9,301 nucleotides of DNA, taken from positions 1 through 9,301 of the forward strand of contig JAJYAH010000212.1 of the NCBI GenBank assembly GCA_021779635.1. The letters run 5' to 3'. The DNA is from Pseudomonadota bacterium (GTDB lineage Bacteria > Pseudomonadota > Alphaproteobacteria > Rhizobiales > Xanthobacteraceae). Made by a program: the position numbers and the translations under genes. Shown piece by piece: positions 1-9,301 of this stretch; the stretch's first letter is position 1, and every line of letters begins with the position of its first letter. The notes under the pieces are model-generated. The model had not been told where the DNA came from. It searched no databases and saw only the letters and a program-made list of their open reading frames with translations.

Positions 1-393
1 ATTCCCGCCGATCATCTCATTCGGTGTATCCGCGAAACCCCTGATATCGCTCTTGCAATGGTCGCATCGGTCTCGCAACGTATGCATTATCTCGTGCAGC
101 AGGTTGAGCAGCTCAAGGCGCAAAGCGGTGTGCAGCGGGTTGCGGAATTTCTGGTGTCGTTGACGATGGCGGAGCATGGTTGCTGCGTGCTCGTGCTGCC
201 ATATGACAAGGTGCTGATCGCGAGCCGGCTCGGCTTGACGCCGGAGACGCTGTCACGCGCCTTCGCGAAACTGAGGGGAGTGGGGGTTACCGTCAACGCA
301 TCACAAGTCAATGTCAGGGATATCATCGAGCTGCGCCGGATCGCGGCTGACGATCGCTATGCCGTCCGAGGTACCTTGCGTCCGATACATTGA
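1..393 (+). CDS. Crp/FNR family transcriptional regulator, C-terminal part (HbaR-like), 5' end outside window
   Basis: The frame is open from base 1 and gives 130 residues up to a TGA at 391-393, so the effector-binding N-terminal domain lies upstream of the window. The visible part begins in the long dimerisation helix (about residues 20-54) and continues into a winged helix-turn-helix (about 67-100). The recognition helix contains P-E-T-L-S-R (E82, S85, R86 of the fragment). This is the E-x-x-S-R arrangement with which FNR reads TTGA half-sites, unlike the R-E-x-x-x-R of CRP. Such regulators are cytoplasmic dimers that activate or repress in response to oxygen, NO or a metabolite; the sensing part is not visible here. 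In Rhodopseudomonas palustris a Crp/FNR protein, HbaR, activates 4-hydroxybenzoate genes, and the neighbouring hbaBCD makes that the leading identity. Four matching palindromes in the downstream promoter gaps support local control. FixK-, DNR- or AadR-like alternatives are not excluded. Confidence 0.88.
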   Translation: MPADHLIRCIRETPDIALAMVASVSQRMHYLVQQVEQLKAQSGVQRVAEFLVSLTMAEHGCCVLVLPYDKVLIASRLGLTPETLSRAFAKLRGVGVTVNASQVNVRDIIELRRIAADDRYAVRGTLRPIH

Positions 394-467: not shown

Positions 468-872
468 ATGTCAGGTGTGATTCTCCAGCCGCCGAACTGG
501 CCGCCGCCGACGGGGTATGCCAACGGCATCAGCGTGGATGGCGGCCGGATTGTCTTCATTGCCGGGCAGGTCGGCTGGGACGCCGATCAAAAATTTGCAA
601 GCGAAGACCTCGTTCCGCAATTCAAGCAAGCGCTGGAAAATATCCTTGCCATTCTTGACGAAGCCGGAGGCAAGCCCGGCGATATTTGCCGGTTGACCGC
701 ATTCTGTATCGACAAGCCCGCCTATCTTGCCGGCCGGCGCGAGCTTGGCCGCATCTGGAAATCACTGATGGGAAATCATTATCCGGCCATGAGCATGATT
801 TTTGTTGCCGATCTGCTCGACACGCCGGCGAAGATCGAGCTCGAGGCAACAGCGGTTATTTCTGCGTCATGA
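468..872 (+). CDS. RidA/YjgF/YER057c/UK114 family protein lacking the catalytic arginine
   Basis: A 134-residue protein of normal length for this trimeric family. Recognisable blocks are the N-terminal TGYANG with Y17, the IAGQVGWD strand (about 31-38), and the C-terminal HYPAMSMIFVADL...KIELEATAV (about 104-130). Classical RidA hydrolyses reactive imines/enamines released by PLP enzymes, using an arginine in the P-A-R-S motif (R105 in E. coli) to hold the carboxylate. Here that position is methionine (M108, PAMS), while the downstream glutamate (E124) is kept. By family knowledge this places it with the Arg-less Rid4-7-type groups, so ordinary imine deaminase activity is unlikely. The start is set by a strong AGGAGG. 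It lies 74 bases after the Crp/FNR gene on the same strand and converges on hbaD with a 45-base gap that shows no clear terminator. Rid-like genes occur in other aromatic-CoA clusters; the substrate here is unknown. Confidence 0.9.
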   Translation: MSGVILQPPNWPPPTGYANGISVDGGRIVFIAGQVGWDADQKFASEDLVPQFKQALENILAILDEAGGKPGDICRLTAFCIDKPAYLAGRRELGRIWKSLMGNHYPAMSMIFVADLLDTPAKIELEATAVISAS

Positions 873-917: not shown

Positions 918-1895
918 TCAAGCCGCATGGCAGAGATCGGCAATCAGGCGCTTTGCCAGCGCGGCGGCGGCGAGCCGACGATAATTTGCCGAGGTGAGGG
1001 TGGTCCGCATCGGCTTGACCTGTCTCTGAACGAGGCGGTCGACCTCTTGCAACAACTCGTCCTCGATGGATCGCCCCGTAAAGGCTTCAGTGCCGGCAAG
1101 CAGGAACGGTCGCGAATTTGTGCCGGTCAGCGCCAAGCGAAACGACACGATTTCGGTTGCGGAGGTCCGAAGCGCTACCGCCACGCCTGCCAGCGGAAAA
1201 TCGATCGCCGCGCGTGTGCGAAGCTTTGCGTAAGCGGATGGAAGCGGGTCCGGCGGCAGATGCACGGCAGTGATGAGCTCGCCGTCAGCAAGTGCAAGAT
1301 GAGCCTTGCCGTCCTCGACATAAAGCTGGCGCAGCGGGATCCGGCGATTTCCCTGTCTTCCGGCTATGTCAACTTGCGCATCAAGAACCAGCAAGGCGGG
1401 CGCAAGGTCGCCGGAGAACGCGGCATGACAGCGTTGCCCCTGCGGGGCCACATGACAAACGCTCCCGCGATTTTTGAGACAATAGTCATTTGCGCTGCGC
1501 CACCATTCGCTCTGGTTGTAGTAGATGCATCTAGTGTCGAGACACAAATTGCCTCCGACGGTCCCCATGACGCGGTGGCCGGGGCCGGCGATGGCCGCCG
1601 CAGCCTGCGCAAGTGCGCCATATCGGGCCACGATCAGATCGTGGCCCGCAAGCGCGGCAATATTGGCACCCGCGCCGATCGCGACCCCATCGTCGGTGAT
1701 CCGGATGGCGGTCAATTCGTCGATACCAGAGAGATCCACCAGCAATTCCGGTGTGTTGATTCCGCGCCTCATGTTCACGAGCAGATCGGTTCCTCCCGCG
1801 ACGAAGCGGCTGCCCGCCTGATCGCGGCAGGCGGCAACTGCCTCTGCGACGCTGCGGGGGTTGGCGAGACGAAACTTCGGCAGTGGTCTGTTCAT
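918..1895 (-). CDS. hbaD: 4-hydroxybenzoyl-CoA reductase, FAD and [4Fe-4S] subunit (beta; HbaD/HcrB)
   Basis: This 325-residue subunit of a xanthine-oxidase-family molybdoenzyme relays electrons between an FAD/[4Fe-4S] module and the [2Fe-2S] subunit. FAD-binding motifs are VAGGTDLL (32-39) and GTVGGNLC (111-118). The diagnostic feature is an insertion with cysteines C123, C139, C147 and C156. Their spacing, C-x15-C-x7-C-x8-C, equals that of the four [4Fe-4S] ligands (122/138/146/155) of the Thauera aromatica beta subunit. Ordinary CO dehydrogenase or xanthine dehydrogenase medium chains lack this insertion, so the substrate call is firm. The complex reductively removes the para-hydroxyl from 4-hydroxybenzoyl-CoA, giving benzoyl-CoA in the cytoplasm under anoxic conditions. 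Its ATG overlaps the hbaC stop as ATGA (1892-1895), indicating translational coupling, and GAAGG lies about 8 bases upstream of the start. It is the last gene of the leftward hbaBCD operon. Confidence 0.95.
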   Translation of the reverse strand: MNRPLPKFRLANPRSVAEAVAACRDQAGSRFVAGGTDLLVNMRRGINTPELLVDLSGIDELTAIRITDDGVAIGAGANIAALAGHDLIVARYGALAQAAAAIAGPGHRVMGTVGGNLCLDTRCIYYNQSEWWRSANDYCLKNRGSVCHVAPQGQRCHAAFSGDLAPALLVLDAQVDIAGRQGNRRIPLRQLYVEDGKAHLALADGELITAVHLPPDPLPSAYAKLRTRAAIDFPLAGVAVALRTSATEIVSFRLALTGTNSRPFLLAGTEAFTGRSIEDELLQEVDRLVQRQVKPMRTTLTSANYRRLAAAALAKRLIADLCHAA

Positions 1896-4228
1896 GACGC
1901 GGCCTTCAGGGTACCGGCAAGCCGTGCGTTCCGCCGGCGCTGGATGAGCCCGTCCATGATCCGGTCAGGTGTCGCCGGCAATTCGTTGAGATCGATGCCG
2001 ATCGCGCTGGCAATGGCGTTGACCAATGCCGGCGGGAAGCCGGCCAGTGCGCCTTCGCTCGCTTCCTTGGCGCCGAGTGGCCCAAATGGATCATGGCTTT
2101 CGACGATATTGGTTTCTATCGGCGGAGAATCCATGATGGTCGGCATGCGATATTCCAGCATGCTTGCATGGGCGGGCAATCCGTCGAGATAGCGGGTTTC
2201 CTCGCAGAGCGCCTGACCCATGCCCATCCAGACCGATCCCTGGATTTGTCCTTCGACCGCAAGCGGATTGATTGCATGACCGCAGTCGAGCGCGACCCAA
2301 ACCTTCTCGACGGTCACAAGACCGGTCGCTTCGTCAACGCTGACTTCCACGACCTGGGCCGCATAGCTGAAGCCCATAGTAGCGCCGACGGCGCCACCGC
2401 GATGCTTGCCGCCTTGCGCTTCCGGCGGACAAGTAAACGTCCCCTTGATTGAGATAGCGCCTTCGTCGACCAGCGCAGCCGCCACGACTTCGGCGAACGG
2501 CAGCGCCGATTGCCTGCCGCCGCCGACGCAAAAAGTCTCGTTGATGCATTCGACGTCCTCGGCGCGCGCTTCAAGCTTGCGTGCGGCGGTGGCAACGAGC
2601 AGCGCTCTCAGCTTTCGGGCGGCGTCAATCGCCGCGTTGCCCACCATGAAGGTGATGCGCGATGAATAGGCTCCGTTATCCTTGGGCGTGACGGCGGTGT
2701 CGGCTGAGATCACGCGCACCCGCTCAAGTGAAATATCCAGCGTTTCGGCCACGGCGATCGCCACCATCGTCGAGGAACCCTGTCCGATGTCGGCGGCGCC
2801 GGTGAGCGCCGTAACCCCTCCATCGAAGTCAAGCTTCAGATTGACGACAGCGTGTGGCTCTCCGGTGAAATGAATCGGCTTGGCCGCGCCGCTGACATAG
2901 TGAGAACAGGCCATCCCGAGCCCCCGGCCTGGCGGCATTCGGCCGATGCGTTCTTTCCATCTGCTCGCCCGCTCGACGCGATCGAGGCATTCAGCCAGCC
3001 CGTAGCTGTTGATCATGAGATCATTCATGGTGCGTGTCGGTGATCGCAACAAGTTGGCGCGGCGCACCGTGAACGGGTCAAGCCCAAGCTCTCGCGCCAT
3101 GCGGTCGACCAGACATTCGAATGCGTGGCGAGTGTCGACCGAACCGTGCCCGCGCATGGCGCCGCAAGGCGGCAGATTCGCGTAGATCCGGTAGCCGTCG
3201 TATTTGACGGCCGGAATGTCGTAGATGCCGTGCAACAGCGAGCCGGCATAAAGGATTGTAATGATACCATAACCGGCATAGGCGCCGCCTCGCTGCACGA
3301 CCTGCAGTTCGCAAGCCGTGAGGCGTCCGTTCCTGTTCATGCCGAGCTTGAGGCGAATATCGGTATGTGGACGGGCACGATGGGTTATGAAGGTCTCTTC
3401 GCGGCTCAGCTCCATCAACACTTTACCAGCGGCTGCACGGGCGAGCAGGGCGGTAACGATCTCGAAATTCAGCGCCTCGACGCGTGCGCCAAAGCCGCCG
3501 CCAATAAAGGGCTTGATGACCCGGATTTGCGACGTCTCCATGTTGAGACATCGGGCAAGCATGAGGTGCAGGTAGTAGCCGACTTGGGACACTGTTTGCA
3601 CAGTAAGGCGGCCGGTCGTGGGATCGAACTCGGCCAGGCTCGCGTGGGGCTCGATTTGCGCGTGGTTGATCTCCGCACAACAGAATGCTTCCTCACGCAC
3701 CAGATCGGCTGTCGAGAAGCCAAGATCGACGTCGCCGAAATGATGGTGGACCTCGCGTTCAACATTGCCGGGTTTGTTGTCGTGCAGCGGGACAGCGCCG
3801 GGCGCGCGGGCGTCATCGGAAGTGTAGTAGGCCGGAAGCTCGCTGATCTTCAGTTCGATCAACCCAAGCGCACGTTCGGCGGTCTCCGCGTCGATCGCTG
3901 CCACTGCCGCTACGGGCTCGCCGCGGTAGCGTACGCGACCACGCGCCAGCGGATACTCGTTCATTGCGATGGGAAGCACGCCATAAGTATAATCGCAATC
4001 ATCGCCGGTAATGACCGCTATGACGCCATCCAGCGCGCGCGCTCTGGAGACGTCCAGTCCGACAATCATGCCATGGCTTACGGGGCTGCGCAGGATGCGG
4101 CCGACCAGGGCATCGGCATGGTCGAGATCGGCTGTGTAACGCGCGCGCCCGGTCACCTTGTCGATGCCGTCGATCAAGGGAACGCCGCGGCGAGAGGTCT
4201 TTTGGTGCATGATAAGATCAGCGGTCAT
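1892..4228 (-). CDS. hbaC: 4-hydroxybenzoyl-CoA reductase, molybdopterin subunit (alpha; HbaC/HcrA)
   Basis: This 778-residue catalytic large subunit is close to the usual family length of about 770. The N-terminal a/b hammerhead domain (about 20-135) is followed by the Mo-cofactor domain. Cofactor motifs are FIGGGFGAR (241-249), GAMRGHGSVDTRHAFE (356-371) and ADIGQGSS (479-486). Near the C terminus, GPLGAKEASEG (716-726) supplies the invariant active-site glutamate (E725, matching Glu726 of the Thauera enzyme). The enzyme uses Mo-molybdopterin cytosine dinucleotide to reduce the phenolic C-O bond of 4-hydroxybenzoyl-CoA. The start at 4228 overlaps the hbaB reading frame by 11 bases and has GGAG about 8 bases upstream. 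A second in-frame ATG at 4210 lacks any Shine-Dalgarno sequence, so 4228 is preferred. Long open frames on the opposite strand are composition shadows. Confidence 0.95.
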   Translation of the reverse strand: MTADLIMHQKTSRRGVPLIDGIDKVTGRARYTADLDHADALVGRILRSPVSHGMIVGLDVSRARALDGVIAVITGDDCDYTYGVLPIAMNEYPLARGRVRYRGEPVAAVAAIDAETAERALGLIELKISELPAYYTSDDARAPGAVPLHDNKPGNVEREVHHHFGDVDLGFSTADLVREEAFCCAEINHAQIEPHASLAEFDPTTGRLTVQTVSQVGYYLHLMLARCLNMETSQIRVIKPFIGGGFGARVEALNFEIVTALLARAAAGKVLMELSREETFITHRARPHTDIRLKLGMNRNGRLTACELQVVQRGGAYAGYGIITILYAGSLLHGIYDIPAVKYDGYRIYANLPPCGAMRGHGSVDTRHAFECLVDRMARELGLDPFTVRRANLLRSPTRTMNDLMINSYGLAECLDRVERASRWKERIGRMPPGRGLGMACSHYVSGAAKPIHFTGEPHAVVNLKLDFDGGVTALTGAADIGQGSSTMVAIAVAETLDISLERVRVISADTAVTPKDNGAYSSRITFMVGNAAIDAARKLRALLVATAARKLEARAEDVECINETFCVGGGRQSALPFAEVVAAALVDEGAISIKGTFTCPPEAQGGKHRGGAVGATMGFSYAAQVVEVSVDEATGLVTVEKVWVALDCGHAINPLAVEGQIQGSVWMGMGQALCEETRYLDGLPAHASMLEYRMPTIMDSPPIETNIVESHDPFGPLGAKEASEGALAGFPPALVNAIASAIGIDLNELPATPDRIMDGLIQRRRNARLAGTLKAAS

Positions 4229-4715
4229 AAGCCATCTCCGCGGCCGCTTTCACGGACTCAACGATCTTAACGTAGCCGGTGCACCGGCAGAGGTTGCCTG
4301 ACAACGCGGCGCGTATTTCTTCGTCGGTCGGCGCCTGGTTTCGACGCAGCAGCGCCTCGGCAGCCATGATCATTCCCGGCGTACAGAAGCCGCATTGAGC
4401 GCCCAGCTTCTCGTGAAAGGCTCGCTGCAAGCTGCTGAGGCGGCCTTGCGTGGCGAGCGCTTCGATTGTTTCAACACTCCGTCCCTCGCAGCGCACGGCA
4501 AGTGTGATGCAGGATGGTATTGCCTCGCCATCGACGAGGACTGTACAGGCGCCGCATTCGCCGCCGTCGCAACCGGTTTTCGTGCCGGTGAGGTGTGCGA
4601 TCTCGCGCAGATAACTGACCAGCAAATCCGTTTCGAGAACGGCGTCTTCTCTCCAGCGCCCGTTCAACTTCAATCTCAGCAGGCGCTTCTTCAGTTCCGA
4701 ACCGGGAGCGTACAT
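4218..4715 (-). CDS. hbaB: 4-hydroxybenzoyl-CoA reductase, [2Fe-2S] subunit (gamma; HbaB/HcrC)
   Basis: A 165-residue small subunit with the two [2Fe-2S] clusters typical of molybdenum hydroxylases. The plant-ferredoxin-like N-terminal cluster uses C49, C54, C57 and C69 (TGCDGGECGACTVLVDG...C). The C-terminal helical-bundle cluster uses C108, C111, C143 and C145 (QCGFCTPG...NLCRCTG). These clusters carry electrons between the HbaD centres and the Mo site of HbaC. It is the first gene of the leftward operon and overlaps hbaC by 11 bases. AGAGG sits about 7 bases before the ATG at 4715 and supports this start. The promoter gap contains an FNR-type palindrome (4768-4781) and a perfect 19-base palindrome (4735-4753) near the predicted -10 region. 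The sequence alone fits many molybdenum hydroxylase small subunits; the specific call comes from the four cysteines of HbaD. Confidence 0.94.
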   Translation of the reverse strand: MYAPGSELKKRLLRLKLNGRWREDAVLETDLLVSYLREIAHLTGTKTGCDGGECGACTVLVDGEAIPSCITLAVRCEGRSVETIEALATQGRLSSLQRAFHEKLGAQCGFCTPGMIMAAEALLRRNQAPTDEEIRAALSGNLCRCTGYVKIVESVKAAAEMAYDR

Positions 4716-4734
4716 CTTTGACCTCTAATCCAGA

Positions 4735-4753
4735 AAGCAATGCTGCATTGCTT
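4735..4753. promoter_or_regulatory. Perfect 19-base palindrome upstream of hbaB, candidate repressor operator
   Basis: AAGCAATGCTGCATTGCTT has two perfect 9-base arms around a single central base. It lies 20-38 bases upstream of the hbaB ATG, and its centre coincides with the -10 position predicted from the FNR-type site at 4768-4781. A dimeric regulator bound there would block RNA polymerase. It has no U-tract, and no hbaB transcript is expected to extend this far upstream, so a terminator is unlikely. No second copy was noticed in the other gaps. The binding protein is unknown. Confidence 0.5.
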
Positions 4754-4767
4754 GGCGCCGTGGCTCC

Positions 4768-4781
4768 ATGACAAAAGTCAA
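4768..4781 (-). promoter_or_regulatory. FNR/HbaR-type operator 1 (hbaB side of the divergent gap)
   Basis: On the + strand it reads ATGAC-AAAA-GTCAA, one mismatch from the palindrome TTGAC-N4-GTCAA. Its centre (4774.5) is 60 bases from the hbaB ATG. If it acts at -41.5, transcription would start near 4733, leaving a leader of about 18 bases. Relative to hbaB, the better half-site is promoter-distal, the reverse of the other three sites. Confidence 0.65.
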
Positions 4782-4819
4782 GAATCACGTCGTCTTTGAA
4801 ACAGAGGCGGACAATCGAC

Positions 4820-4833
4820 CTGACAGAAGTCAA
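4820..4833 (+). promoter_or_regulatory. FNR/HbaR-type operator 2 (upstream of the first CoA ligase)
   Basis: It reads CTGAC-AGAA-GTCAA followed by GG. Its centre (4826.5) lies 52 bases from operator 1. Activation from -41.5 would put the transcript start near 4868 with a weak -10 (TAGATG, 4856-4861). The ATG at 4892 would then follow a leader of about 24 bases, and the upstream ATG at 4859 would lie before the transcript start. Confidence 0.65.
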
Positions 4834-4891
4834 GGACCGGCGTGCGGATCATGAGTAGATGGGAGCGTGGGTAATTGCCAAGGCGACGCTC

Positions 4892-6466
4892 ATGACAGCG
4901 CTTCGCGACTACAATGCCGCGGTGGATTTTGTGGACCGCCACGTGGCCGAGGGCCGTGGTGACAAGATCGCCTTTATTGATCAAGCCCGAAATCTGACCT
5001 ATGGCGAATTGCGCGATTCGGCGGCGCGTATTGGTCCCATGCTGACGCGCATGGGCATCGAGCCGGAAAGCAGAATTGCGCTGGTTCTGCTCGATACCGT
5101 CGATTTTCCCATATTGTTCTGGGGAGCGATCCGGGCTGGCGTCGTACCAGTTCTGGTCAATACGCGCCTCACCGTCGATCAGTACCACTATCTATTTGAA
5201 GATTCGCGTACCAATGCGATTTTCGTCTCAACGCCGCTGCTGCCGGATGTTCAGGAAGCGGCAAAGGATCTGCCTGGTCTCAGACGGATTGTCGTCGTCG
5301 GCGGCGGCCCTGCATCATTGCCGCGGCTTGACTCGCTCCTGGCGGCCGAGAACGAAGGCTCGGCGCCGGCCAGAACCGTGGCCGATGAGGTCGCTTACTG
5401 GCTCTATTCGTCCGGCACCACCGGAATGCCAAAAGGCGTCATGCACGTGCATTCGAGTCCTAGGATCATGGCGCAGACCGCTGGCGAGCGGCGTATCGGT
5501 TATCGCGAAGATGACGTGATCTTTTCCGCCGCCAAACTGTTTTTCGCCTACGGTCTCGGCAACGCGATGTTTTGTCCGATGTGGGTCGGAGCAACATCGG
5601 TCTTGTATTCCGAGCGACCGACGCCGCAGACCGTATTCGAGACTTTGCGCGGCTATCAGCCAACGATGTTCTTTGCAGTGCCAACGCTTTACGCGGCCAT
5701 TCTGGCCGATCCCGAATGCAAGCCAGAAAATATGTCCAGCCGGCTTCGAATCTGCTTCTCGGCCGGAGAGCCGTTGCCTTCGCACGTTGGTATCGCCTGG
5801 AAGCAGCGATTTGGTCTCGACATCGTCAATGGCGTCGGCTCCAGCGAGATGGGGCACCTGTTTCTAACGAATCTCCCCGGGGCCGTCGAATACGGTACAT
5901 CCGGCGTCCCGGTCGATGGCTTCAAACTCAGACTGGTTGACGAAAATGGGCAGGATGTCGGTGACGATGAGATGGGTGAGCTTCTCGTAAAGGGTGAGTC
6001 GACTGCGGCGGGCTACTGGAACCAGCGTGAGAAGTCGCGGCGTACCTTTTTGGGCGAGTGGACCCGCACCGGAGACAAGTACACGCGGCGTGCGGATGGG
6101 GTCTATACCTACTGCGGACGCACGGATGACATGTTCAAGGTCAGCGGGATTTGGGTGTCGCCTTTCGAGATCGAAGACGCCCTGGTAGCTCATCCGAAGG
6201 TCCTGGAAGCTGCCGTCGTGCCGGCCGAGGATGACAACGGTCTGATCAAGCCAAAAGCCTTCATTGTGCTCATGGATCATCCTGAAGGTGAAATCGGCCG
6301 AGCGCTGTTTGAGGAGCTCAAGGTGCATGTGAAGCGCGCCATAGGCCCGTGGAAGTATCCGCGATGGATTGAGTTCGTCGATACTCTGCCAAAGACCGCG
6401 ACCGGAAAGATCCAGCGCTTCATGCTTCGGGATCGGAACGGGATCGCAAACGGTGGAGACCGGTAA
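4892..6466 (+). CDS. Aryl-CoA ligase of the benzoate-CoA ligase family, probably 4-hydroxybenzoate-CoA ligase (HbaA-like)
   Basis: This 524-residue adenylate-forming enzyme would convert an aromatic acid, ATP and CoA to the aryl-CoA. Motifs are the P-loop YSSGTTGMPKG (172-182), KLFFAYGLGNA (215-225), GVGSSEMGHLF (314-324), TGDKY (393-397), the hinge GRTDDMFKVSG (409-419) and PKTATGKIQR (500-509) with catalytic Lys506. The start at 4892 (MTALRDYNAAVDF) is preferred over the in-frame ATG at 4859. It has AAGGCGA upstream, fits the start of related ligases, and agrees with the FNR-type site. The longer form would add 11 residues. Divergence from hbaBCD suggests 4-hydroxybenzoate as substrate. At the acyl-pocket His322 the flanks are G and L instead of the L and I of typical benzoate-CoA ligases, which could admit a para substituent. 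It is a close paralogue of the next gene. Substrate remains inferred. Confidence 0.9.
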   Translation: MTALRDYNAAVDFVDRHVAEGRGDKIAFIDQARNLTYGELRDSAARIGPMLTRMGIEPESRIALVLLDTVDFPILFWGAIRAGVVPVLVNTRLTVDQYHYLFEDSRTNAIFVSTPLLPDVQEAAKDLPGLRRIVVVGGGPASLPRLDSLLAAENEGSAPARTVADEVAYWLYSSGTTGMPKGVMHVHSSPRIMAQTAGERRIGYREDDVIFSAAKLFFAYGLGNAMFCPMWVGATSVLYSERPTPQTVFETLRGYQPTMFFAVPTLYAAILADPECKPENMSSRLRICFSAGEPLPSHVGIAWKQRFGLDIVNGVGSSEMGHLFLTNLPGAVEYGTSGVPVDGFKLRLVDENGQDVGDDEMGELLVKGESTAAGYWNQREKSRRTFLGEWTRTGDKYTRRADGVYTYCGRTDDMFKVSGIWVSPFEIEDALVAHPKVLEAAVVPAEDDNGLIKPKAFIVLMDHPEGEIGRALFEELKVHVKRAIGPWKYPRWIEFVDTLPKTATGKIQRFMLRDRNGIANGGDR

Positions 6467-6479
6467 GCCCGCATCTCGA

Positions 6480-6531
6480 CTTGAACTTGTACGCTGTCGC
6501 GCCGGTTGACCGAAGTCAAGGGGAGTTCAAG
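6480..6531. repeat. Spaced inverted repeat CTTGAACT / AGTTCAAG
   Basis: Two perfect 8-base arms at 6480-6487 and 6524-6531 are separated by 36 bases that contain the FNR-type operator 3. The repeat is centred at 6505.5 and the operator at 6512.5, so the two are not concentric. It has no U-tract and does not look like a terminator. It could be an accessory operator or chance. Confidence 0.3.
6506..6519 (+). promoter_or_regulatory. FNR/HbaR-type operator 3 (upstream of the second CoA ligase), perfect palindrome
   Basis: TTGAC-CGAA-GTCAA is a perfect 5+5 inverted repeat with a 4-base spacer, followed by GG as in operator 2. Its centre is 6512.5. At -41.5 it would drive a start near 6554, with a weak -10-like TATGCA at 6542-6547, giving a leader of about 60 bases before the ATG at 6614. 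This implies the second ligase has its own promoter rather than depending only on read-through from the first. Confidence 0.72.
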
Positions 6532-6613
6532 CCGCAAATGATATGCATCCTTGCAACTCAATCGGCGTGAAAATTGCGAACCGTTTTGCTGAACTGAAAA
6601 GCGGGTCCATGCA

Positions 6614-8227
6614 ATGCTGAACCACACGGTGGAAGCTGATACTTCTGAGGGCTCTTCACGCCTGCGCTTCGCAGAACAATTCAACGTCGCTGTTCCGTTC
6701 ATTGATCGACACGTCGCCGAAGGCCGAGGAAGCAAGGTCGCGATCCGCACATTGAACGACAGCGTGACTTATGCCGATCTCGCTGCCAACGTTAATCGCT
6801 GCGCGGTGCTACTCTCGCGCTTCGGGCTTGAGCGCGGCGATCGCATGCTAATGGTCGTGAAAGACTGTCCCGCCTTCTTCTATCTCTTCTGGGGTGCCAT
6901 CAAGGCTGGTGTCATTCCGGTCCCACTCAATACGCTCCTGCGATCGGCCAGCTACACTTACATGATTGAGGACTCGGGCGCGGCTGCGCTCGTTTACTCA
7001 TCCGAGTTCGCGAATGAGGTACTGCCGGCCATCGCAGGCAGTTCCCGCGCGCCGCGGGTGGTTCTCTGCACGGAAGGTGAAGCAAATTCGCTTGCAGATC
7101 TGCTCGTGGATGCCAATCCGAATTTTGAAGCCGTAACGGCGAGCGCCGACGATGACTGCTTCTGGCTCTACTCGTCGGGCTCCACGGGGGCGCCAAAGGC
7201 CGCTGTTCACCGCCATCGCGACATGGTTGTTACCAGTCAGCGGTTCGGCGTCGAGACATTGGGAATTCGAGAGAATGATGTGTTTTACTCCGAGGCCAAA
7301 TTGTTTTTTGCTTACGGGCTCGGCAACAATCTTAGCTTTCCGCTATGGGTCGGCGCCACGGCGGTGCTGAATGAACACCGTCCTGGTCCAGCCTCGAGCT
7401 TCCAGCTCATCGAGCAAACGCGGCCGACGCTCTATTTCGGGGTTCCGACTCTTTATGCGGCTTATCTGCAGCACTTTACCAAGGAGAAGCCTGATCTCTC
7501 GTCGGTTCGGCAATGCGTATCGGCTGGTGAGGCGCTGCCAGCAGAAATCCTGCGCCGCTGGCATGAAGAAACCGGTCTTTGGATTCTGGACGGTATCGGT
7601 TCGACCGAAGCGCTGCATATCTTCATTTCGAATACGCCAAGCGACGTCAGGCCCGGATCAAGCGGCCGCGTCGTTCCGGGATATTCGGCGCGCATTCTCG
7701 ACGAGCGAGGCGTCGACGTGCCGGACGGTGAGACCGGTCAATTGCTGATTTCCGGAGCGTCGACAGCCCGCTGTTACTGGAACAATGCCGAGCGAACGGC
7801 GACGACGATGGTCGATGGCTGGCTTAATACCGGTGACACCTACCGACGCGATGCGGAAGGTTACTTCTATTACTGTGGTCGCAGCGACGATATGATGAAG
7901 GTTGGGGGCATCTGGTGCTCACCGTTCGAGATCGAATCGCGGCTTGTCGAGCATCCGCAGGTCGTCGAAGCGGCGGTTGTTGGTCGGATAGATCGGGAAG
8001 ATTTGGTCAAACCTGAGGCGTTCGTCGTTCTCAAGGGTGGAGGGGGCGGCAGTCCCGTGCTCGCCGCCGAACTGGCTGAGTTCTGCAAGAAGGGACTCGC
8101 CCCCTACAAATATCCGCGACAGGTGAATTTCGTGACTGAATTGCCAAAGACGGCGACCGGAAAGATCCAGCGTTTTGTGTTGCGTTCAGCACTCAGGGAT
8201 GAGCCGGCGAAGGCACGCCTGCCTTGA
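6614..8227 (+). CDS. Benzoate-CoA ligase family protein (BadA-like)
   Basis: A 537-residue adenylate-forming acyl-CoA ligase making an aryl-CoA from ATP, CoA and an aromatic acid. Motifs are the P-loop YSSGSTGAPKA (186-196), KLFFAYGLGNN (229-239), DGIGSTEALHIF (326-337), TGDTY (406-410), GRSDDMMKVGG (422-432) and PKTATGKIQR (511-520) with catalytic Lys517. That lysine is the acetylation-controlled residue in R. palustris BadA. The His335 flanks (L334, I336) match typical benzoate-CoA ligases, pointing to benzoate or a small analogue. The P-loop has PKA where PKG is usual, and a five-glycine run (475-479) lies in the C-terminal domain. The start codon has only a weak Shine-Dalgarno sequence and precedes an N-terminal extension of about 20 residues before the conserved AEQFNVAVPFIDRHVAEG region, so the exact start is less certain. 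It is paralogous to the preceding gene; a 147-base gap with its own FNR-type site separates them. Confidence 0.9.
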   Translation: MLNHTVEADTSEGSSRLRFAEQFNVAVPFIDRHVAEGRGSKVAIRTLNDSVTYADLAANVNRCAVLLSRFGLERGDRMLMVVKDCPAFFYLFWGAIKAGVIPVPLNTLLRSASYTYMIEDSGAAALVYSSEFANEVLPAIAGSSRAPRVVLCTEGEANSLADLLVDANPNFEAVTASADDDCFWLYSSGSTGAPKAAVHRHRDMVVTSQRFGVETLGIRENDVFYSEAKLFFAYGLGNNLSFPLWVGATAVLNEHRPGPASSFQLIEQTRPTLYFGVPTLYAAYLQHFTKEKPDLSSVRQCVSAGEALPAEILRRWHEETGLWILDGIGSTEALHIFISNTPSDVRPGSSGRVVPGYSARILDERGVDVPDGETGQLLISGASTARCYWNNAERTATTMVDGWLNTGDTYRRDAEGYFYYCGRSDDMMKVGGIWCSPFEIESRLVEHPQVVEAAVVGRIDREDLVKPEAFVVLKGGGGGSPVLAAELAEFCKKGLAPYKYPRQVNFVTELPKTATGKIQRFVLRSALRDEPAKARLP

Positions 8228-8268
8228 CATCCTTCCAGTGTCGGTGCGTTTGCCTTTTCGAGATGTCA
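8225..8268. repeat. Inverted repeat TGACATC / GATGTCA spanning the second ligase stop codon
   Basis: Perfect 7-base arms at 8225-8231 and 8262-8268 surround 30 bases. The left arm includes the TGA stop (8225-8227). The loop is long, the stem is not GC-rich and no U-run follows, so this is at best a weak mRNA structure and not a convincing terminator. Confidence 0.2.
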
Positions 8269-8302
8269 TCGGCCGCGCCGGCAAGGGACGCGAGATGATC
8301 GG

Positions 8303-8316
8303 TTGATTTTAGTCAA
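8303..8316 (+). promoter_or_regulatory. FNR/HbaR-type operator 4 (upstream of the bacteriohemerythrin)
   Basis: TTGAT-TTTA-GTCAA followed by GG is a hybrid between the FNR consensus half TTGAT and the GTCAA half shared by the other three sites. Its centre is 8309.5. Exactly where a -41.5 activator requires a -10 box lies TATTTT (8339-8344), predicting a transcript start near 8351 and a leader of about 54 bases to the ATG at 8405. Confidence 0.7.
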
Positions 8317-8338
8317 GGCACGGCTGTTGTTCGTAGCA

Positions 8339-8344
8339 TATTTT
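8339..8344 (+). promoter_or_regulatory. Candidate -10 element of the hemerythrin/transporter promoter
   Basis: TATTTT matches four of six bases of TATAAT and sits in an AT-rich run in otherwise GC-rich DNA. Its first base is 29.5 bases from the centre of operator 4, the spacing of a class II Crp/FNR-activated promoter, and no good -35 box is needed in that arrangement. Confidence 0.45.
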
Positions 8345-8404
8345 TCGTCAACCGTTCTGGTCGTGCGCATTAAAATCGGTGAATTGTATTGAGGGTGAAT
8401 AACC

Positions 8405-8851
8405 ATGGCCCTGGTACAGTGGAGGAGCGAACACAGCGTCGGGGCCGAGACGATCGATGACGAGCACAAAGCGCTCATCGACCGGATCAATCGCCTTGAT
8501 GATCAACTCATGGCCGCGGACGCCCCACTCGCGGTGTCGATCTTCTTCAGGCGTCTGACCGAGTTGGTCACGTCGCATTTCGTTCGTGAAGAACGGTTTG
8601 TGCGCGAACGTGGCTACGATCAGTTGCCGCAGCACAGAGAAGACTATGAACGCCTCCTCGATGAGATAGATGCATCGATCGAAGAATTCGATCCTAACGA
8701 GATGTCGAGTCGTGGGGATCTCGCAGCCCTGCTCGATGGCTGGCTTTCGGATCATTTCCAGACCCATGATGTCAGGCTCGCGGAGGCATTTCATCCTAAC
8801 GCCGAGCCCGGAGTCCGCCACGTTTCGTGCATCTCTGAGAGCAAGGTCTGA
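8405..8851 (+). CDS. Bacteriohemerythrin (non-heme di-iron O2-binding protein) with a His-to-Tyr ligand change
   Basis: A 148-residue single-domain hemerythrin. Members bind O2 reversibly at a carboxylate-bridged di-iron site in a four-helix bundle and act in O2 storage, delivery, scavenging or sensing. Ligand positions by comparison with Methylococcus bacteriohemerythrin (H22, H58, E62, H77, H81, H117, D122) are H21 (DDEHKAL), H58 and E62 (SHFVREE), H77 (PQHRED), H117 and D122 (DHFQTHD). The residue at position 81 is Tyr instead of His (codon TAT), so one iron has a changed ligand set. GAGGGT lies 8 bases before the ATG. The gene has its own FNR-type operator and lies 20 bases before the transporter, so the two probably share a transcript. 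In a locus of O2-sensitive enzymes an O2-buffering or signalling role is reasonable inference. There is no signal peptide, so it is cytoplasmic. Confidence 0.92.
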   Translation: MALVQWRSEHSVGAETIDDEHKALIDRINRLDDQLMAADAPLAVSIFFRRLTELVTSHFVREERFVRERGYDQLPQHREDYERLLDEIDASIEEFDPNEMSSRGDLAALLDGWLSDHFQTHDVRLAEAFHPNAEPGVRHVSCISESKV

Positions 8852-8871: not shown

Positions 8872-9301
8872 ATGCAGAGCAGAAGCCAAGTGGATGTTCG
8901 GGCCTTTCTCGACGAGCACCCGTTCACATCCTTTCAATGGATCGTTTTCTCTTTGTGCTTCGTCGTGGTCCTGCTGGATGGGTTCGATACCGCCGCGATC
9001 GGGTTTGTTGCGCCCTCCTTGATCAAGGAATGGGGTGTCGAAAAATCCGCACTTGGGCCGGTGCTTAGCGCGGCGCTGTTTGGCCTTGCGGCCGGAGCCA
9101 TCGTCGCCGGACCGCTTGCCGATCGCTTTGGCCGCAAGTTCATGCTGGTCATCTCCGTGCTGGTGTTCGGCGTTGCCTGTCTCGGCTCGGCGTTCTCCGC
9201 CGACCTCCGCCAACTGACCTTGCTGCGTTTTGTGACGGGGCTCGGTCTCGGAGCGGCAATGCCGAATGCTGTGACGATGATGAGTGAGTACTGCCCGCAG
9301 C
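8872..9301 (+). CDS. MFS transporter, aromatic acid:H+ symporter (AAHS) family, N-terminal part (PcaK/BenK-like), truncated by window end
   Basis: The frame is open from ATG 8872 to the last base (143 codons), about one third of a typical 12-helix AAHS permease of 440-460 residues. The protein begins MQSRSQVDVRAFLDEHPFT, then helix 1 with the AAHS signature D-G-F-D (LLDGFDTAAIGFVAPSL, about 35-51). Helix 2 leads into the MFS loop 2-3 motif GPLADRFGRK (about 80-89), followed by helix 3 and the helix 4 region (RFVTGLGLGAAMPNAVTMMSEY). The DGFD acidic residues are needed for proton-coupled aromatic acid uptake in PcaK. The protein is an inner-membrane importer, probably of 4-hydroxybenzoate, benzoate or a related acid, feeding the two ligases upstream. 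It follows the hemerythrin by 20 bases with a strong ribosome binding site, so it is likely under FNR-type operator 4. Exact substrate cannot be read from this fragment. Confidence 0.9.
   Translation, partial: MQSRSQVDVRAFLDEHPFTSFQWIVFSLCFVVVLLDGFDTAAIGFVAPSLIKEWGVEKSALGPVLSAALFGLAAGAIVAGPLADRFGRKFMLVISVLVFGVACLGSAFSADLRQLTLLRFVTGLGLGAAMPNAVTMMSEYCPQ

Follow-up and report, generated by a model that had tools for sequence, protein, structure and literature searches.

We analyzed a window of 9,301 nucleotides from a bacterium of the Xanthobacteraceae (Rhizobiales; contig JAJYAH010000212.1 of GenBank assembly GCA_021779635.1), which carries the genes of 4-hydroxybenzoyl-CoA reductase (hbaBCD), two genes of the benzoate-CoA ligase family, a bacteriohemerythrin gene, part of a gene for a PcaK-like transporter and, at its left edge, the 3' part of a regulator gene. 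The subject of this study is a set of four palindromes located before hbaB, ligase 1, ligase 2, and the hemerythrin gene (Table 1). When both strands of the window were scanned with the pattern TGAYNNNNGTCAAG, four exact matches were obtained, starting at positions 4769, 4821, 6507, and 8304, and A stood directly before GTCAAG in all of them. An earlier sequence-only reading of this DNA had pointed out the same four palindromes, with coordinates that include one base ahead of the TGAYNNNNGTCAAG match, and the scan returned these four alone. The three intergenic gaps of more than 100 bases (4716-4891, 6467-6613, and 8228-8404) contained all four, and the three shorter gaps of the window were without a site. 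As that reading had also claimed, no exact match lay inside a gene of the window; the nearest was a one-mismatch match at 2277-2290 in hbaC. With up to two mismatches, 26 matches were found in the window against 12.2 expected, a number reached in 1 of 200 shuffles.

Table 1 Genes, palindromic sites, and putative promoter elements of the window
Feature	Coordinates	Strand	Remarks
HbaR orthologue (predicted), 3' part of regulator gene	1..393	+	Pfam HTH_Crp_2 43.7 bits (cut-off 27); recognition helix LTPETLSR within Crp-type helix-turn-helix
Rid-family protein	468..872	+	Pfam Ribonuc_L-PSP 67.9 bits (cut-off 27.3); NCBIfam matches below cut-off
hbaD, 4-hydroxybenzoyl-CoA reductase beta subunit	918..1895	-	TIGR03195 above cut-off
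hbaC, 4-hydroxybenzoyl-CoA reductase alpha subunit	1892..4228	-	TIGR03194 above cut-off
hbaB, 4-hydroxybenzoyl-CoA reductase gamma subunit	4218..4715	-	TIGR03193 above cut-off
hbaB promoter, -10-like CAGCAT	4740..4745	-	start index 37 from site; predicted transcript start 4733, 18-base leader
Site 1, CTTGACTTTTGTCATGGA (read toward hbaB)	4768..4781	-	centre 4774.5; matrix rank 1
Site 2, CTGACAGAAGTCAAGG	4820..4833	+	centre 4826.5; matrix rank 2
Ligase 1 promoter, -10-like TAGATG	4856..4861	+	predicted transcript start 4868, 24-base leader to ATG 4892
Ligase 1, benzoate-CoA ligase family (hbaA position)	4892..6466	+	TIGR02262 839 bits (cut-off 375)
Site 3, TTGACCGAAGTCAAGG	6506..6519	+	centre 6512.5; matrix rank 4
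Ligase 2 promoter, -10-like TATGCA	6542..6547	+	predicted transcript start 6554, 60-base leader
Ligase 2, benzoate-CoA ligase family	6614..8227	+	TIGR02262 621 bits (cut-off 375)
Site 4, TTGATTTTAGTCAAGG	8303..8316	+	centre 8309.5; matrix rank 3
Hemerythrin promoter, -10-like TATTTT	8339..8344	+	predicted transcript start 8351, 54-base leader
Bacteriohemerythrin	8405..8851	+	NF033749 89.5 bits (cut-off 84)
PcaK-like aromatic acid transporter, cut by window end	8872..9301	+	best match PcaK, partial protein

For a motif this short, with a common element making up one half, palindromes might arise by chance. This possibility was examined with a weight matrix of 20 positions, for which 12 relatives supplied 22 sites, each located between hbaB and ligase 1; the window itself did not contribute, nor did the distal sites of L005 and L011, which have one mismatch (relatives and loci are designated by L numbers). 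With this relatives-only matrix, the four sites were the top four positions of the window on both strands (32.5, 28.4, 17.6, and 14.7 bits), and those before ligase 2 and the hemerythrin gene were among them although such promoters were absent from the training. Ranks 5 and 6 (12.7 and 11.6 bits) lay within genes, 2.0 and 3.1 bits under the fourth site, and rank 7 scored 2.6; the intergenic share of the window is 639 of 9,301 bases. Dinucleotide-shuffled sequences (n = 300) contained on average 0.017 positions scoring at least as high as the fourth site. When L255, a relative outside the training that came to light via its hemerythrin, was scanned, the top three positions of 19.9 kb were the hbaB, ligase 1, and hemerythrin sites; ligase 2 was not found between ligase 1 and hemerythrin of this locus. 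Taken together with the constant spacing in relatives described below, the held-out ranks and the shuffles effectively rule out chance.

To assess the conservation of the sites, we took the 80 best of 423 hbaC loci in named genome records and scanned the region upstream of hbaB only where it was long enough. In the window and in 11 relatives, 54-60 bases separated the centre of the hbaB-proximal site from the ATG; the distance was greater in L012 and L013 (79 and 83 bases). In Rhodopseudomonas, a close hbaB was present in 4 of 16 genomes and the 13-mer TTGAYTTYNGTCA was kept on the hbaB side in all four. For ligase 2, we compared the 18 loci with their best match to this gene (L160-L177; 12 others, L178-L189, matched ligase 1 better). 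Four of them, with 73-84% identity, had the site 100-104 bases before the start, L164 with the variant TTGATCTTGGTCAG, and these four were used in the promoter comparison; L173 had a variant site, TTGACCATCATCAA, and in the remaining 13 the 240 bases read contained no site (in L168 the contig begins inside the gene). The L163 gene, which is 76% identical, showed no site within the bases read. The two sites of the hbaB-ligase 1 gap were 52 bases apart, start to start, in the window, 41-53 in the nine relatives with both exact sites (L001-L004, L006, L007, L010, L014, and L051), and 91 in L012. Helical phasing of the two sites was rejected because of this variable spacing, and they are better read as one putative operator for each of the divergent promoters.

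Another arrangement was observed behind the ligase 1 promoter of two relatives (L003:7121-9343 and L005:7086-9305 (-)). The gene directly following the promoter encodes a 740-residue ADP-forming acyl-CoA-synthetase-like protein, in L003 with the Pfam domains CoA_binding_2, Succ_CoA_lig, and ATP-grasp_5, which opens with a near copy of the first 11-12 residues of ligase 1 (MALRDYNAAVD). Ligase 1, with its own MALRDYNAAVD-like start, comes after it. The promoter and the first codons of ligase 1 seem to have been duplicated onto the acyl-CoA-synthetase-like gene. L006 may resemble this arrangement; the start of its gene was not called.

Subsequently, 33 promoters were aligned at the site and read toward the gene: 12 of hbaB, 12 of ligase 1, 5 of ligase 2, and 4 of hemerythrin, the latter two sets being limited to loci whose site lies at about 94-104 bases. 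A pyrimidine followed by A was found at index 37-38 in 27 of the 33 promoters (T-A in 17), the out-of-register ligase 1 promoter of L011 being counted as a miss; elsewhere between index 28 and 47 it occurred in no more than 8. A site centre at -41.5 would place index 37-38 at -12/-11, the first two bases of the -10 element. No TTGACA-like -35 element was present 17 bases before the -10-like hexamers in the four promoters of the window. A site centred near -41.5 with a -10 element and no -35 element is the layout of class II activator promoters of the Crp/Fnr superfamily, and judged by this alignment the four promoter classes fit it. The activator geometry at -41.5 that had been proposed for the sites agrees with the constant offset of the -10-like element, and the leaders of 18, 24, 60, and 54 bases calculated from it are arithmetically correct given a ligase 1 start at ATG 4892. 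The ligase 1 starts of relatives agree with a protein from this ATG, and a longer open reading frame, from 4859, would begin upstream of the predicted transcript start. For comparison, the pio promoter of Rhodopseudomonas palustris has a FixK box with its centre at -44.5 (PMC3050613).

The last 130 residues of the window regulator were 65-87% identical to regulators near hbaD in relatives, including 71% to that of Rhodopseudomonas pseudopalustris (L011). The regulator gene stands beside hbaBCD and a hydroxybenzoate/benzoate-CoA ligase gene in the window and in relatives including L011; in the window and several relatives the Rid-family gene sits between hbaR and hbaD. By gene order and similarity, the left-edge regulator is an orthologue of HbaR. 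The regulon reading advanced earlier holds in that the sites are of the Crp/Fnr type, and fails in that the regulator is not new. No HbaR model was among the matches of the curated models, and the best NCBIfam match was FtrB, below cut-off. HbaR of the relatives has the recognition helix PESLSR, and an N-terminal cysteine cluster of the Fnr-type Fe-S sensor was absent from their full-length proteins; by contrast, L228 and L233 are Fnr-like proteins that do carry the cysteines and have the helix IETVSR. By sequence alone, DNR and 3fx3-type Crp/Fnr proteins were the closest solved relatives of one of these HbaR proteins and had the same PE[ST].SR helix.

According to the abstract of a study by Egland and Harwood from 2000, HbaR is reportedly required for about 20-fold induction of hbaA and active in a different host when the cells are aerobic. 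In R. palustris, hbaA, hbaB, hbaC, and hbaR are rpa0669, 0670, 0671, and 0673, and their log2 changes on 4-hydroxybenzoate over succinate in strain SA008.1.07 were 9.98, 8.40, 8.37, and 4.19 (PMC6974649). In a yeast chimera, the sensor domain of R. palustris HbaR answered to 4-hydroxybenzoate, and benzoate and p-aminobenzoate were also active, at lower concentration (PMC6959289).

The co-occurrence of HbaR with the 13-mer was compared in 50 of the 80 loci, the other 30 being mostly distant or short. The 13-mer was present within 260 bases of hbaB in 12 of the 14 genomes with an HbaR of at least 60% identity and in none of the other 36, 11 of which had a distant match (33-48%). Fisher's test gave 7e-10, a value that is only a guide because the groups differ in ancestry. 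Among the left-out loci that were readable, none had the 13-mer before hbaB. On these results, the HbaR orthologue at the left edge of the window is likely to use the four palindromes as operators for class II activation. The true binder could instead be a paralogue, either a second tandem HbaR-like gene product or another DNR/FtrB-like Crp/Fnr protein. Indeed, L001 and L051 have two tandem HbaR-like genes with the same recognition helix (L001:13415-15033 and L051:13596-15234 (-)), and a third Crp/Fnr gene lies near the hemerythrin gene in the L051 genome. Against this, 7 of the 12 genomes that carry the 13-mer ahead of hbaB show a single HbaR match (E <= 1e-30). The window regulator is also closer to the copy on the hbaD side, with 84% in L001 and 81% in L051, compared with 78% for the second copy in either relative. 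On both counts, a paralogue is improbable.

The promoters of hbaR itself were also compared. A TTGA-N6-TCAA site was centred 55.5-65.5 bases before hbaR in 10 of the 12 relatives with an adjacent HbaR (12 genes); none was seen in L009 and L014. Each of the tandem HbaR-like genes of L001 and L051 has its own site of this kind, about 63-65 bases upstream. Because the hbaR promoters of relatives have their own Crp/Fnr-type site, oxygen is probably sensed one step earlier than HbaR. In R. palustris, FixK controls AadR and AadR controls the bad genes (PMC6191541), and growth on 4-hydroxybenzoate needs both hbaR and aadR (PMC6509789). A two-step cascade, first oxygen and then the aromatic compound, would be a natural inference.

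Direct binding of the four sites by an oxygen- or redox-responsive regulator of the Fnr family (AadR, FnrN, or FixK), with HbaR dispensable or a co-binder, was weighed against this assignment. The window sites have the TTGA-N6-TCAA frame and the class II position in common with the FixK/FnrN/AadR boxes of Alphaproteobacteria (PMC3050613, PMC4999443). Such a FixK box works at a class II promoter of R. palustris (PMC3050613), the FnrN, FixK, and AadR sites of Rhizobiales have been modelled by one profile (PMC4999443), and a mixed form, TTGACTTTAATCAA, was found at two hbaR promoters (L002 and L051 copy a). The 13-mer before hemA-like and respiratory genes, described below, is a further point in favor of direct binding. 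The letters of the sites differ, however, since those of the window read TTGAY-TTY-N-GTCA in one orientation, whereas the FixK/FnrN/AadR boxes read TTGATC-NN-GATCAA. The canonical form TTGATCNNGATCAA was present at none of the four window sites and exactly at 5 of the 12 hbaR genes with a site in relatives; none of these 12 had the 13-mer. Furthermore, among the 36 loci without a close HbaR, TTGATCNNGATCAA preceded hbaB in 8 (L038, L041, L042, L045, L047, L050, L059, and L062, all without an HbaR match at E <= 1e-30) and the 13-mer in none; in the last seven named, perfect sites lay about 80-150 bases before hbaB. Because such loci have TTGATCNNGATCAA before hbaB, direct Fnr-type control is suggested where HbaR is missing, that is, a switch of regulator. 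For the window, we regard direct control by an Fnr-family protein as unlikely, and operators of HbaR remain the preferred assignment.

When the genomes of 12 HbaR-bearing relatives were scanned, the 13-mer gave 74 matches against 3 for the backward control. Sixty of the 74 lay outside called genes, against about 12 expected from the called coding cover (84%, measured with a crude gene caller on stretches picked around the matches), and this in-gene frequency check favors the earlier claim. Twenty-five matches belonged to the four promoter classes (20 in the hbaB-ligase 1 gap, 3 at ligase 2, and 2 at hemerythrin), partly by construction, since the 13-mer was derived from relatives that were also scanned; 35 of the remaining 49 were outside called genes. 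In the L051 genome (4.1 Mb), five of eight matches fell within a 14.3-kb stretch ending at the hbaB promoter. The canonical form TTGATCNNGATCAA occurred at 58 places in the 12 HbaR genomes (palindromes listed on both strands). In 12 HbaR-poor, hba-bearing genomes (11 without a close HbaR, and L008), the 13-mer gave 33 matches against 2 for the backward control, and four genomes had none. In L122, the genome of L051, 13-mer sites were observed in the divergent gap between a hemerythrin gene and a gene for an FeS_assembly_P protein, and in that between a gene of the enoyl-CoA-hydratase family (BadI-like by sequence) and a 4HBT-type thioesterase gene; the third Crp/Fnr gene, with a TPEYLSR helix, is nearby.

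In the case of hemerythrin, the site lay 94-102 bases before the start in three relatives and 152 bases in a fourth (L193), which was left out of the promoter alignment. The gene was preceded by the site in the window, L255, and L001, and by a site with variant letters or distance in L010 and the L051 genome. It adjoins hbaR in L009, L010, and the L012 genome; no site was seen before the copies of L009 and the L012 genome, or before the 54% homologue of the L002 genome (L192). The hemerythrin may keep oxygen from the reductase or its partners. Because only 20 bases separate the two genes, the transporter is probably in the hemerythrin operon; as a partial protein, it scores below the whole-protein cut-off of the PcaK model. 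The compact regulon that had been envisaged, joining CoA activation, dehydroxylation, the hemerythrin, and, via the 20-base gap, uptake, is supported by these findings. One paper that contains both hemerythrin and 4-hydroxybenzoyl-CoA reductase reports a hemerythrin-like protein among the abundant proteins of an aniline degrader, with no regulon mentioned in the accessible part of its text (PMC7500099).

Several observations weigh against HbaR as the binder or against the extent of its regulon. The hbaR promoter of the window, as well as the N-terminus and sensor domain of the regulator, fall outside the window. The L009 genome has a 74% HbaR and variant sites only, that at hbaB lying at 90 bases; the L008 genome has a 60% HbaR and no site before hbaB; and the L013 genome has no HbaR match yet carries TTGATTTAGATCA sites. 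The ligase-side site is degraded in Rhodopseudomonas, and 15 of the 19 hemerythrin loci examined were without a site. The density of the 13-mer outside hba promoters was alike in HbaR-bearing genomes (0.92/Mb; 49 matches in 53.5 Mb) and HbaR-poor genomes (0.76/Mb; 33 in 43.6 Mb), and the regulon of HbaR itself accordingly looks small and local. Finally, the 13-mer also precedes hemA-like and respiratory genes. Forty other neighbors were sampled with part of their sequence, and 20 of them, with two further checks, were looked up in Pfam; they included two hemA-like aminotransferases, a NosR-like protein, cytochromes, a succinate dehydrogenase anchor, and a molybdopterin oxidoreductase, at 70-304 bases from the 13-mer (the hemA-like and NosR-like names are from sequence, and the NosR-like protein shows only Fer4_5 in Pfam). 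Such genes are the territory of Fnr and FixK. Because the 13-mer stands before them, other Crp/Fnr proteins probably bind it too. An exclusive code of HbaR was rejected on these grounds and on the occurrence of the 13-mer in HbaR-poor genomes. The proposal of a TTGAC/GTCAA form specific to a single regulator other than FNR, AadR, and FixK likewise finds no support as it stands; we would rather describe the 13-mer as the form favored by promoters linked to HbaR.

From the sites, their conservation, the constant distance to the -10-like element, and the co-occurrence with HbaR, we infer the following mechanism. HbaR, a 4-hydroxybenzoate sensor of the Crp/Fnr superfamily, would bind as a dimer centred at -41.5, compensate for the absent -35 element, and recruit RNA polymerase. 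It would thereby activate four promoters, those of hbaBCD (dehydroxylation), ligase 1, ligase 2 (CoA activation), and hemerythrin with the transporter, from starts near those predicted in Table 1. Oxygen would probably be read upstream of HbaR, at the hbaR promoter, via the Crp/Fnr-type site.

HbaR of R. palustris shares the gene neighborhood (hbaA, hbaBC, hbaR) and the protein family with the window, and its hba genes are induced by 4-hydroxybenzoate (PMC6974649). The window differs in its four promoters with an explicit common operator, the second ligase, the hemerythrin, and the PcaK-like transporter; the uptake genes given for R. palustris are the ABC system hbaEFGH (PMC6974649). An operator sequence of HbaR was not found in the accessible text of the literature searched, which included PMC6959289, PMC4999443, PMC6191541, PMC4424350, PMC6974649, PMC6509789, and PMC3050613 and left subscription papers mostly outside. 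Control by HbaR is already known, and the operator and the hemerythrin look like the new parts. A further possibility, which we advance tentatively and with some doubt, is that HbaR has its own code, TTGAYTTYNGTCA, whose strength differs from that of the FNR/AadR/FixK code driving hbaR, so that an AND gate of low oxygen and then 4-hydroxybenzoate would result, and that a dedicated hemerythrin is a recurrent member of the regulon guarding the oxygen-sensitive reductase or the low-oxygen switch.

For HbaR, these findings would supply a concrete layout of operator and promoter that can be put to the test, and the 4-hydroxybenzoate regulon would gain a second CoA ligase and a hemerythrin that binds oxygen. 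They also hint at a way in which these bacteria may join an oxygen signal with an aromatic signal.

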